NCBI GenBank assembly: GCA_017999915.1
Contig: JAGNKX010000006.1
Span: 222,210 to 286,209 of the forward strand
DNA from: Spirochaetota bacterium
Lineage (GTDB): Bacteria; Spirochaetota; UBA4802; UBA5550
DNA length: 64,000 nt
Direction of reading: 5' to 3'
The translations under genes and the position numbers were made by a program. Under the pieces are notes generated by a model. It was not told where the DNA came from. It searched no databases and was given only the letters and a program-made list of their open reading frames with translations. Below, piece by piece: positions 20,089 to 25,709 of this stretch. Numbering within the stretch: position 1 is the stretch's first letter; each line of letters opens with the position of its first letter.

Positions 20089-20523
20089 TTATGTCTGACC
20101 GATGGGGGTAGGGCTCGCCTGATCCTTGGCGTTTTTCATGAAAAAATAGCCGATACCCTGCGCGATCATCAAAATAACGGACACGCACCACAGTGGCGCC
20201 ATTCTCCCCAGGGAAATGCCGCCGGCCATATAGAAAGGAATGCCTGCCGCAATCAGTCCGGACAGAAGAGGAAACAGGGTTATGGGTATGATTCCCCTGC
20301 GTTCAATTGGATTGGCTGCCGCCCACAACAATATGCCCGTCCAGCCTGCCATGAGCGCGGCGCCGACGTTCATCAGATACAGGGCCGTGGCATCCGGCGC
20401 AAAGTCATTGATGCCGATGACCATGCCCGCCAGCTTGGGGAACATCAGGGGTGGCACGAATAAGGCATCCGCGACGGCGCCCGCTATAAATGTGATACGT
20501 ACGAACAAAACTTTTTTATCCAT
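20089..20523 (-). CDS. Four-helix membrane protein of unknown function, downstream of the MerB-like gene
   Basis: A 144-residue protein with about four hydrophobic helices (residues 8-28, 48-68, 78-98 and 105-128) and a short polar tail. I do not recognise the family. The start at 20523 follows a good GAGGGAAAG ribosome site; an upstream in-frame ATG at 20556 lacks one. Only 45 bases separate it from the stop of the MerB-like selenoprotein gene, so the two are probably co-transcribed. It contains one cysteine, within LWCVSV, and none of the paired cysteines of MerT or MerC, so a mercury transporter role is not supported. Confidence 0.65.
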   Translation of the reverse strand: MDKKVLFVRITFIAGAVADALFVPPLMFPKLAGMVIGINDFAPDATALYLMNVGAALMAGWTGILLWAAANPIERRGIIPITLFPLLSGLIAAGIPFYMAGGISLGRMAPLWCVSVILMIAQGIGYFFMKNAKDQASPTPIGQT

Positions 20524-20568
20524 GTTCTTTCCCTCTACAATAAAATCATTAACCATTCCATCAAATGA

Positions 20569-21330
20569 TCAGCCGCCCAGGGGGCAGCGGTTGAACTCAA
20601 AGGAAACCTCCTGGAAGAGCGGGGCCAGAAATGCGTTTTGCGCCAGGGTAAGGTACAAGCCTTTCTTTCCGCCATGTTGTTTTCGATGATTCCTTGCGTG
20701 TTCTTCTGACCAGAAGAAGACCGACTTCATTCAGAAATCATCGATGATGCTCGGCGCCTTCAGCCTGGAGAAATCGACCATGGGGATAAAGAAGACAGGG
20801 TCCGACGTTTCGTCTTCCAGGATGAAGCTCAAGTCGCTGTTCATCCGGAACCTGATCTCCCTGCCGCAGCAGGCGCACTCTGTCCTGATATTGAAGGTAA
20901 GGGATTCACCGCGTAAACGTCCTTGCACGAAGGGCGTTGCGACCGCGTCCGTCGCTCAGGCGGCCCCGATGGACTCCCCGGTGGAAAATTCGACCCGGTG
21001 CGGGGTGGGCGCCACGGTCACCGGGTACGCCCACTCGACGTCCCTCCCGCCGGGGCGGAATAAAAAGAGCTTGCGGCGCTCGAGCTCGTTCATGATCGAC
21101 ACGACATGACTGGCATCCATGCCGAGCCCGCGGGCGACGAAATCGGGACCCATCGGCCGCGCGTATCCCGGCAGCTCCCGGACCACGAAGTGGTGCACCT
21201 TCCGCTGGTCCCCGTCAAGATGGCCGAAGGTCACCCTGTTCTTCGACGCTTCTTTGGACGCCATTATCCTGAAGAGGCCCCAGGGGACGGGAACCATGTA
21301 TCGCCCATGGCCGAACAGAATTCGTTTCAT
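20569..21330 (-). CDS. MerB-like organomercurial lyase homologue with two predicted selenocysteines
   Basis: Read through two TGA codons (20956-20958 and 20731-20733), this frame gives a 253-residue protein. An N-terminal winged-helix-like region (about 55-90) is followed by the MerB core. The first TGA (residue 125) lies in ESIGAA-U-ATDAV, aligning with YAW-C96-ALDTL of MerB and keeping the catalytic Asp three residues later. The second (residue 200) lies in DDF-U-MKSVFFWS, aligning with QSF-C159-CHVHFFAS. Other cysteines (ECACCG, NRCPLGG) use TGC. Known MerB uses Cys96, Asp99 and Cys159 to cleave carbon-mercury bonds. Both TGAs precede SECIS-like hairpins. The ATG at 21330 is chosen because AAGGAG stands six bases before it. 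A gene with two nonsense mutations is the alternative, but losing only the two catalytic codons by chance is unlikely. The substrate is unknown. Confidence 0.8.
20701..20718 (-). promoter_or_regulatory. SECIS-like hairpin for the second TGA
   Basis: Reading the mRNA, UUCUUCU pairs with AGAAGAA around the tetraloop GGUC, giving a perfect 7-bp stem. The loop occupies positions 20-23 after the TGA at 20731-20733. In E. coli fdhF the essential GGUC loop stands at about positions 19-22, so both the loop sequence and its spacing agree. This is the strongest evidence for selenocysteine insertion in the window. Confidence 0.75.
20916..20938 (-). promoter_or_regulatory. SECIS-like hairpin for the first TGA
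   Basis: AACG-C-CCUU pairs with AAGG-A-CGUU (eight pairs, one C-A mismatch) around the loop CGUGC. The loop lies 27-31 bases after the TGA at 20956-20958 and has G as its second base. This fits the general bacterial SECIS model (loop 16-37 bases downstream, G in the first two loop positions), though less closely than the second hairpin. An alternative GCGAC/GUCGC stem sits directly after the TGA. Confidence 0.6.
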
Positions 21331-21356
21331 GAGATTCTCCTTGATCATTGAATTAT

Positions 21357-21397
21357 GTTTAGATACTAAACAGATAATTATAATTTAGCATCTAAAC
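21357..21397. promoter_or_regulatory. Two palindromic operators, probable MarR sites, upstream of the selenoprotein gene
   Basis: A perfect 15-bp palindrome GTTTAG-ATA-CTAAAC (21357-21371) and a near copy ATTTAG-CAT-CTAAAC (21383-21397) lie 27-67 bases upstream of the ATG at 21330, between it and the marR-type gene. The same motif recurs at the second marR locus (41441-41455 and 41956-41970), which supports binding by MarR-family proteins. Confidence 0.65.
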
Positions 21398-21513: not shown

Positions 21514-21966
21514 TTACGTATGGCCGTTTGTTAATTGTGCTTCTATATAATTCAAAAAATCGCCGATGACTTTACGGTCCCGTTCCGGAAGGGAAGTCAA
21601 ATATGAGTTAAATCGCCTGGATATGCCTTCTTGAATTTTTTTGCATTGCTTATATACGTTTTTGCCTGGATCGGTTAATATGATCGCCAGGTCATTGTTG
21701 TCGGGATTTTTTTTCTTTTTCAGGATCCCTTTCTTGACAAGGCGGGAAATGGTCTGCGATACGGCCCCCTTGGTCACGCCCAGCTGCCTGACAATGGTGC
21801 CGTAGCTTTCTTCTTTCCCATTGGATATCATCAAGATGAGATGTATTTCAGAAGGAAACAATTTTAGATCATCGCCGTATGTCAGGACTGTGCTTTTCTC
21901 GTTAAAAATTATCTGATTGATGATACGTATAAATTGATCGGTGCTGGCTTCACTATGTTTTGTCAT
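21514..21966 (-). CDS. MarR-family transcriptional regulator
   Basis: A 150-residue winged-helix regulator. The recognition region is VRQLGVTKGAVSQTISRLVKKGILKKKKNPDN in two pieces (helices about 60-95, wing with NPDNNDLAIILTDPG). MarR proteins usually repress nearby genes and release DNA on binding aromatic compounds or on thiol oxidation; this one has a cysteine in YKQCKKI. It lies directly upstream of the MerB-like gene, on the same strand, with palindromic operators between them, so it most likely controls that gene. Confidence 0.9.
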   Translation of the reverse strand: MTKHSEASTDQFIRIINQIIFNEKSTVLTYGDDLKLFPSEIHLILMISNGKEESYGTIVRQLGVTKGAVSQTISRLVKKGILKKKKNPDNNDLAIILTDPGKNVYKQCKKIQEGISRRFNSYLTSLPERDRKVIGDFLNYIEAQLTNGHT

Positions 21967-22128: not shown

Positions 22129-23133
22129 TCAAGCCTGCGGAAGCCGGTCCTGCGCTATTTTATTGCCCGCACCGGCCACAGCCGGTATTCCATAGGATTG
22201 CATGTGTTCAGCGATACGCTTAATGTTCTGTTCCCAGATCGTCCTTTCCGGGGGGGTGAAGTAATTCATCGGATATTCCCTGCCCAGTGACTTGTATTTC
22301 TCCACGCCCAGCTGTCTGTAAGGGAGCAGCTGGACCTGCATGACGCGGTTGCCGAGGTCACCCATGATAAAATCCGCGGTGGCGCTGATATTTTCATCGC
22401 CGTCGTTAAGCCCGGCGATGACCGGAACGCGGATGATGAGGGGCTTGTTCGCCTTCGCCGCTGCCGTAATATTTTCCAGAATGCGCTCATTGCCGACGCC
22501 CGTATATTCCCTGTGCTTTTCCGAATCCATATGCTTGATGTCGGTTATGATCATGTCCGGGAGCGGAAGGATCTCGCTCACTATCTCTTGTGCGGCGTGA
22601 AGGGAGGATTCGACGCAGGTATGGATGCCGCGGCCCCGGCATTCTTTCAGGATCTCGGCCGTGAACCGCCACTGCGCCAGCGGCTCACCGCCGGAGATCG
22701 TCACGCCTCCGCCCGACTTTTTGTAAAAATCGATGTCGGACAGGATAGCCTTCATGACTTCGGGCACCGTCATCTTTTTGCCCCACACCGTCAGGGCCCC
22801 GGAGGGGCAGGCGTCGGCGCATGCAAGGCACCCGGCGCACTTTTCCCGGTCAATCCCCGTTATGGCGGTACCGTCGGTCAGGAGCGCGCCCTTTCCTGAT
22901 TCCGAACACGCCTTGACGCAGTAGCCGCATTGGGCGACGCCGATGCAGCGTTTGGAATAGACGCCCACCTCGGGATTCGGTCCCATGCTCTCGGGATTGC
23001 TGCACCAGCGGCAGCGCAGGGGGCATCCCTTTAAAAAGATTTCCGTCCGTATGCCGGGCCCGTCATGAATGGTATACCGCTGTATGTCGAAGACCAATCC
23101 CTCGCCGCGGGCGTTTGCGCTTTCGGATTTCAT
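22129..23133 (-). CDS. Glycyl radical enzyme activating protein (radical SAM)
   Basis: A 334-residue activase that uses S-adenosylmethionine to place the glycyl radical on its partner enzyme. The radical-SAM cluster motif is CPLRCRWC (CxxxCxxC, about residue 35). An inserted ferredoxin-like segment has two more cluster motifs ([14 protein letters not shown] and [16 protein letters not shown], about 50-105), and the [14 protein letters not shown] motif follows. A TTG at 23160 would overlap the enzyme gene, but the ATG at 23133 stands seven bases from GGAAGG and is preferred. It directly follows its presumed substrate gene. Confidence 0.93.
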
Positions 23134-23156
23134 AAAGGGCTTCCTTCCCGCGCTTG

Positions 23157-25709
23157 TCAATCGAAGGAGAGCTCGGTCCTTCCCATGATATCGTACTGCA
23201 GGGGCTTTGAGAGTTCCACGAAGATGGCGCTGTATCCGGCGACGCGCACCACCATGTCCCGGTAGTTTTCCGGGTGCTTCATGGCGTCCTCAAGGGTCTC
23301 CCGGCTTATTATGTTGAACTGGCAGTGCATCCCCTTCCGGTCGAAGTAGGATTCTATCAGGGAGATGAAATTATCCCTGCCGGAATCTCCCGATACGGCC
23401 GAAGGCGAGAACTTCATGTTGAGCAGCGTGCCGTTCCCCGCCCGTATGTGATCGAGCTTCGCCACCGATTTGATCATCGCCGTGGGACCGCTTACGTCGT
23501 GGGACCTGATCTGGGTGTGGACGGCGCCGAGGCAGTCCGAGACAGGCTCAAGGGCCTTGCGTCCTTCCGGCGAGGCCCATTGCACCAGCCCGAGGGCGAC
23601 ATTGGCGGAAACCGAGTAGACCCCCGGAAGGTATATCCCGCCCCGCGCGTTGGGCCTGTTCTCGACATGCTTGCAGTAGGTGTCCGAAGCGAATCGCGCC
23701 AGGCTGTCCGCGTAGTCGTCGTCGTTCCCGTAATGATGGACCCTGTCGCTGTTCACCAGCGCGTAGAGCGGCTCGTTGCCCGTCCAGTTCTGCTCGCAGG
23801 CGTCGAGGAGCTTCCTGCCGCTGACCTTCTTCTCGTCAAAAACGAGCTGCTTGATGGTCGACAATCCGTCCGCCACGGCGCCGACTCCCACGGCCTGGGG
23901 CCCGGTGAAATTATAATGCGCTCCCCCCGCCGTGACATCCACGCCCCGGTCGATGCAGTCGTCCATCAGCGCCGAGAGGTAGGGAAGGGGCTTCAATTCC
24001 CGGTGCGCCCCGTCCATGATCTCGATGCCGGCGATCATCAGGTCGACCCAGTATTTCATCTGTTTATCATATGACTCGAGCACCTGGTCAAACGAGGTGA
24101 AATCCGCGAGGCTCCCGGTTTCCGGTCCCAGGCGCTTTCCCGCGCCGCCGCACCGGTCCCAGCGCATGCAGTGGGAGCCGCAGCCGATGCAGCGGCCGTC
24201 GTTGATCGCCAGCTCCAGGACCTTGGCTATGCTGAAATAGGCGGCGTCGTGCCAGCCGTATTCCCTGCCGCCGGCGTCGATCTCGACGCACCCGACCACG
24301 TGGTAATTCCTGGAATCCTCAAGGGTCCTGCCCGCCCGCAGAGAAGCCGGTATGGCGGCCTGGTCGTTGAAAATCTTGGGCTGGCCCGTGCCGATGCGTA
24401 TGACGTTGGCGGTTTTTACCTTCAGCTCCCGCGGCGTGTTCTCGTGCCACCGCACCGCCAGCCAGGGAGTGCCCCACCGGGTATGGGCAAGGGCGTCAAG
24501 GCACATGTAGGTCAGGTCGTTGGTGGCGTCCTTTCCTTCCCTGTCGACGCCGCCGATCGTCAGCGAATCCCCGCCCATTCCCCTGCCAGAATTGGCTATG
24601 ACGGTCATCCTGTCGCGGAGCTTCGTCCACCAGATGTCCTTCATGTAGAGTATCTCGATCAGCTCCTGTATCCATTCCCGGGTCGCCGCGCCGGACCTGG
24701 TGTCGGCGTCGTAGAACGGGAGCATGTACTGGTCGAAGCGGCCGAAGGAAACGGAATGGCCGTTCGTTTCGATGAGTGTTATGGTCGTGGCCATGAACAT
24801 CAGCTGAAGGACCTCCCAGAAGGTGCGCGGACTGTTCTCCGATACCCATTCGCAATTGTCCGCGATTTTAGGAAGAAGCTTCCGCCACTCCGGGTCCTTT
24901 TCCTTTTTCGCCAGGCTCCGGGCGAGGGCGGCGTAGCGCCGCAGGTAATCGCTCGCGGCGTCCAGGACTATCAGCTCGGCCTCGTAAAAGTCGCGCTTGC
25001 CGCTGTTCCCGGGATCGTTCGCGTCCAGCTCCTCCATCTTCTTCCTGGCCGCTTCCTTGAGGCCGCCGTATCCCAGGGCGAAGAGCTTTTCATAGTTCAG
25101 CTGGAGATGGCCGATGCCGGCGAACATGTAAAGGTTCAGGAGGAAGAGGTTGCGCTCCAGGTTGCTTCCCTTCTTCTCGTCGTCGGTCATGCGGGACGCT
25201 ATGGCTTCATCGATGCTTTTGCCCTTCCAGAAGCTTTCGATTCCGAAGAGCTTTTTCCTGGATTCTTTGGTCATGTAATATTCGTCATGGAGCCTCTTGT
25301 CCCAGGGGTGATTCTTCATCTCGTCGACGATCCAGCCATAGGAATGCTCGGGAAAGATGGGGGCTGATTTCATCGGCGCCGCCATCTCGCCGACGATGAG
25401 CTCGTCGGGAAGGATGCGTATGGTGACGTTGCGGAGCACGTGGGCCAGGGCGTGGGCGCACTTGAGTATCTGCGGGGAGCCGCGATATTTTTCATAGGCC
25501 TCGGTCACAAGGCAGGCCCGTTCATGGTCGACGGTGAATTTGCTGTCCAGTATGAACCTGCGGAACCGGTTCACGCGGGGAAAGGGCGAATGGGAGTCAC
25601 CCATGGCGTTGGCCCCCACTCCCCAGTCCCTGTCGGTCGGTTCCACGGGCAGGGGCCTTATCGCCGGCTCCGCCATTTTTTTTGCCGATTGTGCCATTGC
25701 GGTTTGCAT
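23157..25709 (-). CDS. Glycyl radical enzyme of the pyruvate formate-lyase superfamily, substrate unknown
   Basis: An 850-residue anaerobic radical enzyme. The glycyl loop is RVAGYSA near the C-terminus (about 827), and the active-site cysteine lies in [11 protein letters not shown] (about 485). The Cys-Val-Glu order is that of the dehydratase/decarboxylase/lyase branches (diol dehydratase, choline lyase, arylacetate decarboxylases) and differs from pyruvate formate-lyase itself, which has two adjacent cysteines. A cysteine-rich stretch follows ([17 protein letters not shown]), which is unusual and may bind metal or zinc. The start has a GAGAGGAGG site. It is followed by its activase and preceded by an SCP2-like gene. 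The substrate cannot be assigned. Confidence 0.9.

Follow-up and report, generated by a model that had tools for sequence, protein, structure and literature searches.

The gene and its two in-frame TGA codons

The window considered here is the whole stretch of 64,000 nucleotides taken from contig JAGNKX010000006.1 of a Spirochaetota bacterium (assembly GCA_017999915.1), and the subject of this study is a gene on its minus strand, at 20569–21330, which matches the family of the organomercurial lyase MerB (PF03243; PDB 3f0o and 3f2f; MerB2, 5c17) and has TGA at both positions of the catalytic pair, where MerB has Cys. It is very probable that this is one gene whose two TGAs are conserved across many phyla, and that its product is a predicted MerB-fold enzyme with selenocysteine (Sec) at both positions, likely splitting C–Hg (or similar carbon–metal) bonds.

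A first-pass annotation of the window had described a single minus-strand frame, open apart from two TGAs, in which the remaining cysteines use TGC; the coordinates were verified (the TGAs being codons 125 and 200), as was the use of TGC for every Cys codon in the frame. Under translation table 11 the frame stops at codon 125, and the list of open reading frames (ORFs) gives only an ORF of 130 residues. A read-through frame is in itself no proof of anything and is not beyond chance, since the window holds 113 TGA-containing frames of at least 150 codons before TAA or TAG (54 plus, 59 minus), a count that includes real genes extended past their own TGA stop.

Conservation among related loci

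An alignment of relatives served as the query against one genome from each of 84,980 species, and the best 80 of the 101 relatives found were used as loci. Of the two peptide patterns employed in the scan, A[TL]PFVQG[RQ]L overlies the first of the hairpins described below; this biases the sample towards the peptide, not towards particular codons. Codon 125 is TGA in 79 of these loci and TGC in one (L020), while codon 200 is TGA in all 80. Asp128 and Cys152 are likewise retained throughout, and position 155 is occupied by Cys, Ser or Thr. Frames disrupted elsewhere, which might have been expected of relatives had the frame been spurious, did not appear: none of the 81 genes (window plus 80 loci) has an extra in-frame stop ahead of its terminator, which is itself TGA in 38 of them. 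It is because both TGAs recur in 79 of the 80 loci, with no further in-frame stop in the 81 genes, that the frame can be regarded as beyond chance.

All 80 loci are labelled as metagenome-assembled genomes (MAGs), and their record labels, which can be wrong, include Spirochaetes, Acidobacteria, Chloroflexi, Deltaproteobacteria and orders thereof, Nitrospirae, Zixiibacteriota, Binatia, Rokuibacteriota, Bacteroidota, Abyssobacteria and others. In 297 genomes of one phylum, searched separately, there were six matches, namely one locus already known (L120, identical with L033), four new ones with TGA at both sites (L116–L119) and a fragment with TGA at site 2 (L121). Within the window's own class the gene occurs in two of 46 genomes, the window's and that of one congener (L019), assembled separately, whose gene is 81% identical and has both TGAs. 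Comparison of these two gives dN/dS of 0.115 overall, and of 0.125 before, 0.171 between and 0.102 after the TGAs; purifying selection acts after the second TGA.

Residues at the two sites in homologous proteins

Two protein searches (the second contributing the best 120 of 237 matches) yielded 126 proteins besides the query. The residues at sites 1 and 2 are Trp/Trp in 51, Cys followed by the end of the protein in 46, an end already at site 1 in 20 and Trp then an end before site 2 in three; two have Ser/Cys (P0056 and P0073, at protein level), and there is one case each of Gly/Leu, Arg/end, Glu/Ser and Cys/gap. Cys takes the place of Sec at site 1 in 46 of the 126 and at site 2 in the same two Ser/Cys proteins. 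One of the 46 Cys/end proteins is that of L020, where the DNA reads TGC and then TGA. Hairpin 1 is still present at this locus, in keeping with a switch from Sec to Cys that happened recently. A tree of 129 sequences requires nine changes of the Sec/Cys state at site 1, at least six of them forced by well supported branches, implying repeated exchange between Sec and Cys at this site.

Hairpins after each TGA

Bacterial selenocysteine insertion sequence (bSECIS) elements are hairpins lying just 3' of the UGA, with the loop some 16–37 nt from it and a G early in the loop. A hairpin of this kind follows each TGA, with loops 26 nt after the first and 19 nt after the second. For hairpin 1 the consensus is (CG)CCCTT-CGTGC-AAGGG(CG), with at least four of the five core pairs present in all 81 genes, and for hairpin 2 it is TTCTTCT-GGTC-AGAAGAA, with at least six of seven pairs, again in all 81; both keep a fixed distance from the TGA.

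Counted pair by pair, 94.5% of cells are paired in hairpin 1 (14 changes on both sides) and 99.6% in hairpin 2 (10 such changes), levels reached by none of 500 shuffles in either case, although kinship among the sequences can inflate such comparisons; if the partner is shifted by 1–3 columns pairing falls to 32–73%. On a stricter count hairpin 2 has three pairs changed on both sides, matched by 0/500 shuffles, while the number of further pair types is matched by 49/500 (hairpin 1) and 47/500 (hairpin 2). One relative, L116, combines Pro133Ser with a change in the opposite stem of hairpin 1 (GTCC/GGAC), so that the pair was kept as the amino acid changed. Synonymous choice was assessed as a separate line of evidence in the 73 codon columns having one main degenerate amino acid, in genes ranging from 38 to 71% G+C: median normalised entropy is 0.09 in the 10 hairpin columns vs 0.87 in the other 63 (Mann–Whitney p 3e-7). 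Folding energies relative to shuffled triplets have their nine lowest values, out of 176 start positions, at 195–203, around site 2.

Selenocysteine machinery

The window's genome is 99.2% complete, and the genes for Sec insertion, whose absence would have counted against the first-pass proposal, are all present: tRNA-Sec (72.5 bits) adjoins selB (304.9 bits) and selA (487 bits vs a cut-off of 268), and selD scores 371.8 bits. The selD gene (contig C3 of this genome, G000, 130695–131621; L101) itself contains a single in-frame TGA; SelD is known to occur as a selenoprotein. Among the first 50 carrier genomes tRNA-Sec reaches at least 61 bits in 40, and SelB is over cut-off in seven of the other 10 and in 24 of 29 further carriers, so that 71 of 79 carriers have a strong match to one or the other; of a further 59 genomes from the window's phylum, 13 reach 58 bits.

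Relationship to MerB and to known selenoproteins

The window protein scores 50.6 bits against PF03243 (cut-off 27) and keeps the whole MerB fold, placing it in the MerB superfamily. The alignment agrees with the first-pass placement of the first TGA at MerB Cys96, with the catalytic Asp kept, and of the second at Cys159, so the reactive positions of the MerB active site (Cys96, Asp99, Cys159) are themselves retained, with Asp present and both Cys replaced by TGA. The proposal that both positions are Sec is supported by this Cys alignment, the Asp, the full Sec machinery and the DNA of relatives, and stands as a prediction. The MerB equivalog models are not reached (NF009710, 29.6 vs 193 bits; NF033555, 28.7 vs 200 bits).

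MerB-like selenoproteins as such are already known, in the form of the MerB-like organometallic lyase SaoL (NF040728), likewise a predicted selenoprotein. However, SaoL has one Sec, in a CU motif, whereas the window protein has two TGA sites, preceded by Ala and Phe, and no CU motif; it does not exceed the SaoL cut-off (38.6 vs 140 bits), nor does any protein of the 31 genomes searched (the window's and 30 carriers). Three carriers (G061, G092, G090) contain further MerB-like frames of 157–168 codons with one TGA, also under the SaoL cut-off, which may represent another MerB-like selenoprotein group. Judged from its sequence, the product of the window gene is a predicted double selenoprotein of the MerB superfamily that belongs to neither the MerB nor the SaoL equivalog group; it is most likely a lyase acting on organometals.

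The claim that no MerB-type enzyme with two Sec had been described holds for Table 1 of PMC13188914, in which, of 119 prokaryotic selenoprotein families by its authors' count, SaoL, with its one Sec (CU), is the sole MerB-like entry. A passage of PMC9312934 gives the SaoL accession as ‘Alkylmercury lyase MerB-like protein’. A table in PMC7435645 includes ‘Organic mercuric lyase MerB2’ as a predicted bacterial selenoprotein, without detail; it shares name and family with the window protein, the passage in question gives neither the number of Sec nor a sequence, and it may be identical with the present family. A word search for MerB in the main text of PMC5029168, PMC2398784 and PMC12013277 was negative, and no title or abstract among the matches listed from the open-access literature concerns a double-Sec form. 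Two other families resemble the window protein in having two Sec and names referring to metals, NF041115 (metal-binding protein / putative mercuric reductase, UxxU) and MbdU (NF045648; PMC13188914 Table 1); going by the rows of that table only, they differ in family model and motif.

Proposed chemistry

SelB and Sec-tRNA, acting with one hairpin per UGA, would insert Sec at positions 125 and 200. By analogy with the mechanism of MerB, R–Hg+ would then be held by two selenolates in place of the Cys96 and Cys159 thiolates, and Asp128 (MerB Asp99) would pass a proton, so releasing R–H and leaving Hg(II) between the two selenolates. Since the genome has no merA over cut-off, sulfide or a small thiol might be expected to take up Hg(II) by exchange. 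Selenolates hold Hg(II) more tightly than do thiolates, and exchange at Se is fast; release of Hg(II) is the weak step of the proposed mechanism. Sulfide would be at hand for many of the carriers, which are named as anaerobic groups.

Genomic neighbourhood and mercury context

Features are collected in Table 1. The MarR-family regulator recurs, its cluster being found in eight of 81 sequences (the window and seven loci) and within 600 bp in seven of these eight; together with the inverted repeat over the promoter-like site it would probably switch the gene on. Promoter-like sites number four in the region against a shuffle mean of 2.4 (sd 1.6) and are not clearly enriched.

Table 1 Features of the double-TGA gene, its surroundings and the hgcAB locus of the same genome.
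Feature	Position	Strand	Remarks
Double-TGA MerB-type gene	20569..21330	minus	253 codons + terminator TGA; PF03243 match; TGAs conserved
Ribosome-binding site	21337..21342	minus	AAGGAG
Start codon	21330-21328	minus	ATG
TGA codon 125	20956..20958	minus	predicted Sec; aligns with MerB Cys96
Asp128 codon	20947..20949	minus	aligns with MerB Asp99; D in 80/80 loci
SECIS-like hairpin 1	20918..20936	minus	loop CGUGC
Cys152 codon	20875..20877	minus	aligns with structural MerB Cys117; C in 80/80 loci
TGA codon 200	20731..20733	minus	predicted Sec; aligns with MerB Cys159
SECIS-like hairpin 2	20701..20718	minus	GGUC tetraloop
Terminator TGA	20571-20569	minus	
Inverted repeat, candidate operator	21357..21397	.	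14-nt arms, 93% complementary; pattern match only
Sigma-70-like promoter	21410-21382		overlapped by inverted repeat; pattern match only
MarR-family regulator, upstream	21514..21966	minus	same strand as MerB-type gene
hgcA, hgcB, ArsR-type regulator	G000 contig C1 86191-88059 (L122 2692-4560)		

Beyond the MarR gene, on the same strand, lie a glycyl radical enzyme (PFL-like, 850 aa) and a radical-SAM activase (343 aa), at 22129–25709. Just downstream of the MerB-type gene, also on the same strand (20089–20556), is a protein of 155 aa, hydrophobic by eye, with no Pfam or NCBIfam match.

Elsewhere in the genome hgcA (397 bits vs a cut-off of 275) and hgcB (120 vs 99) are followed by an ArsR-type regulator, on account of which the organism is predicted to be a mercury methylator. 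These genes are on contig C1 and the MerB-type gene on C6; their presence in one genome is a fact, while a functional link between them is only a candidate. Of 50 genomes, the window's and those of 49 carriers, 19 have HgcA over cut-off, vs 49 of 194 sampled from a methylator-rich phylum (p 0.079).

Weighing the readings

Several observations weigh against the reading of this gene as a double-Sec, MerB-type lyase. The protein differs from MerB in being only 16–19% identical to it, in falling under the NCBIfam equivalog cut-offs and in having no mer genes beside its gene; the neighbouring genes include no recurrent mer gene, and the window's genome has no MerA over cut-off (best 271 bits vs 454). 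A strong machinery match is missing from eight of the 79 carriers, all of them MAGs of unstated completeness. Hairpin 1 of the window gene has one C–A mismatch, the stricter count for this hairpin (two pairs changed on both sides) is matched by 285/500 shuffles, and the folding signal at site 1 is weak, start 123 ranking 10th and codon 125 30th of 176. The codon that ends the Cys/end proteins at site 2 is seen in only one of the 46, and the Trp entries, like Arg (P0027), Gly/Leu (P0022) and Ser at site 1 (P0056, P0073), are known at protein level only. Both the lyase activity and the selenium content of the protein are predicted.

A more specific version, namely an undescribed family of organomercurial lyases with both catalytic Cys as Sec, spread over about a dozen phyla, MerA-free and here giving an hgcAB methylator its own selenium-based demethylase, can be held only tentatively, at slightly less than an even chance. 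The absence of recurring mer neighbours and of a MerA over cut-off means that the substrate may be other than mercury, and a MerB-fold double selenoprotein that is not a mercury lyase at all, but serves in soft-metal binding, sensing or storage, or as a lyase for organo-arsenic, organo-tin or other substrates, is the least unlikely of the alternatives. A bis-selenolate complex of Hg should be very stable, slowing turnover, and the window protein's weak match to the model for SaoL, an organometallic lyase, points the same way; however, the proton-donor Asp, which would be needless for binding alone, is present in 80 of 80 loci, and the whole MerB fold is retained.

Decoding of UGA as some other amino acid, such as Trp, is very improbable. 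In its favour are the proteins with Trp, 51 at both sites and three at site 1 with an end before site 2, and TGA is one step from TGG, but TGG is absent from both sites in all 80 DNA loci, which makes translation under code 4 the most likely origin of Trp at both sites; the Trp/Trp entries come mostly from short metagenome contigs and would be explained most simply by code-4 gene calling, while the SECIS-like hairpins, the Sec machinery and the Cys of homologues all fit Sec. Code 4 gives no explanation for P0060 (Trp, then an end). The residues in P0060, P0027 and P0022 are all one base from TGA; they may have arisen by decay once Sec decoding had been lost, or by sequencing error. Finally, the idea that the frame is a pseudogene, or an assembly error, carrying two nonsense mutations, for which one might cite the early end of the frame under table 11 and the abundance of chance read-through frames in the window, has practically no chance of being correct, being refuted by the recurrence of both TGAs in 79 of 80 loci and by purifying selection continuing past the second.

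Implications

If the reading as a double-Sec MerB-type lyase is true, both metal-binding thiols of a known enzyme have been swapped for selenium and kept so across many phyla, which would amount to a new way of building an enzyme that breaks carbon–mercury bonds. Because some homologues carry Cys at site 1 (and, in rare cases, at site 2), the family would also allow a clean test of what selenium, as against sulfur, brings to Hg–C cleavage and to metal release. Surveys that identify methylmercury degraders by an intact MerB (Cys96, Cys159) would probably miss these genes, those in hgcAB genomes included, because table 11 cuts them at the first or second TGA, as the entries ending at one or other site already illustrate.
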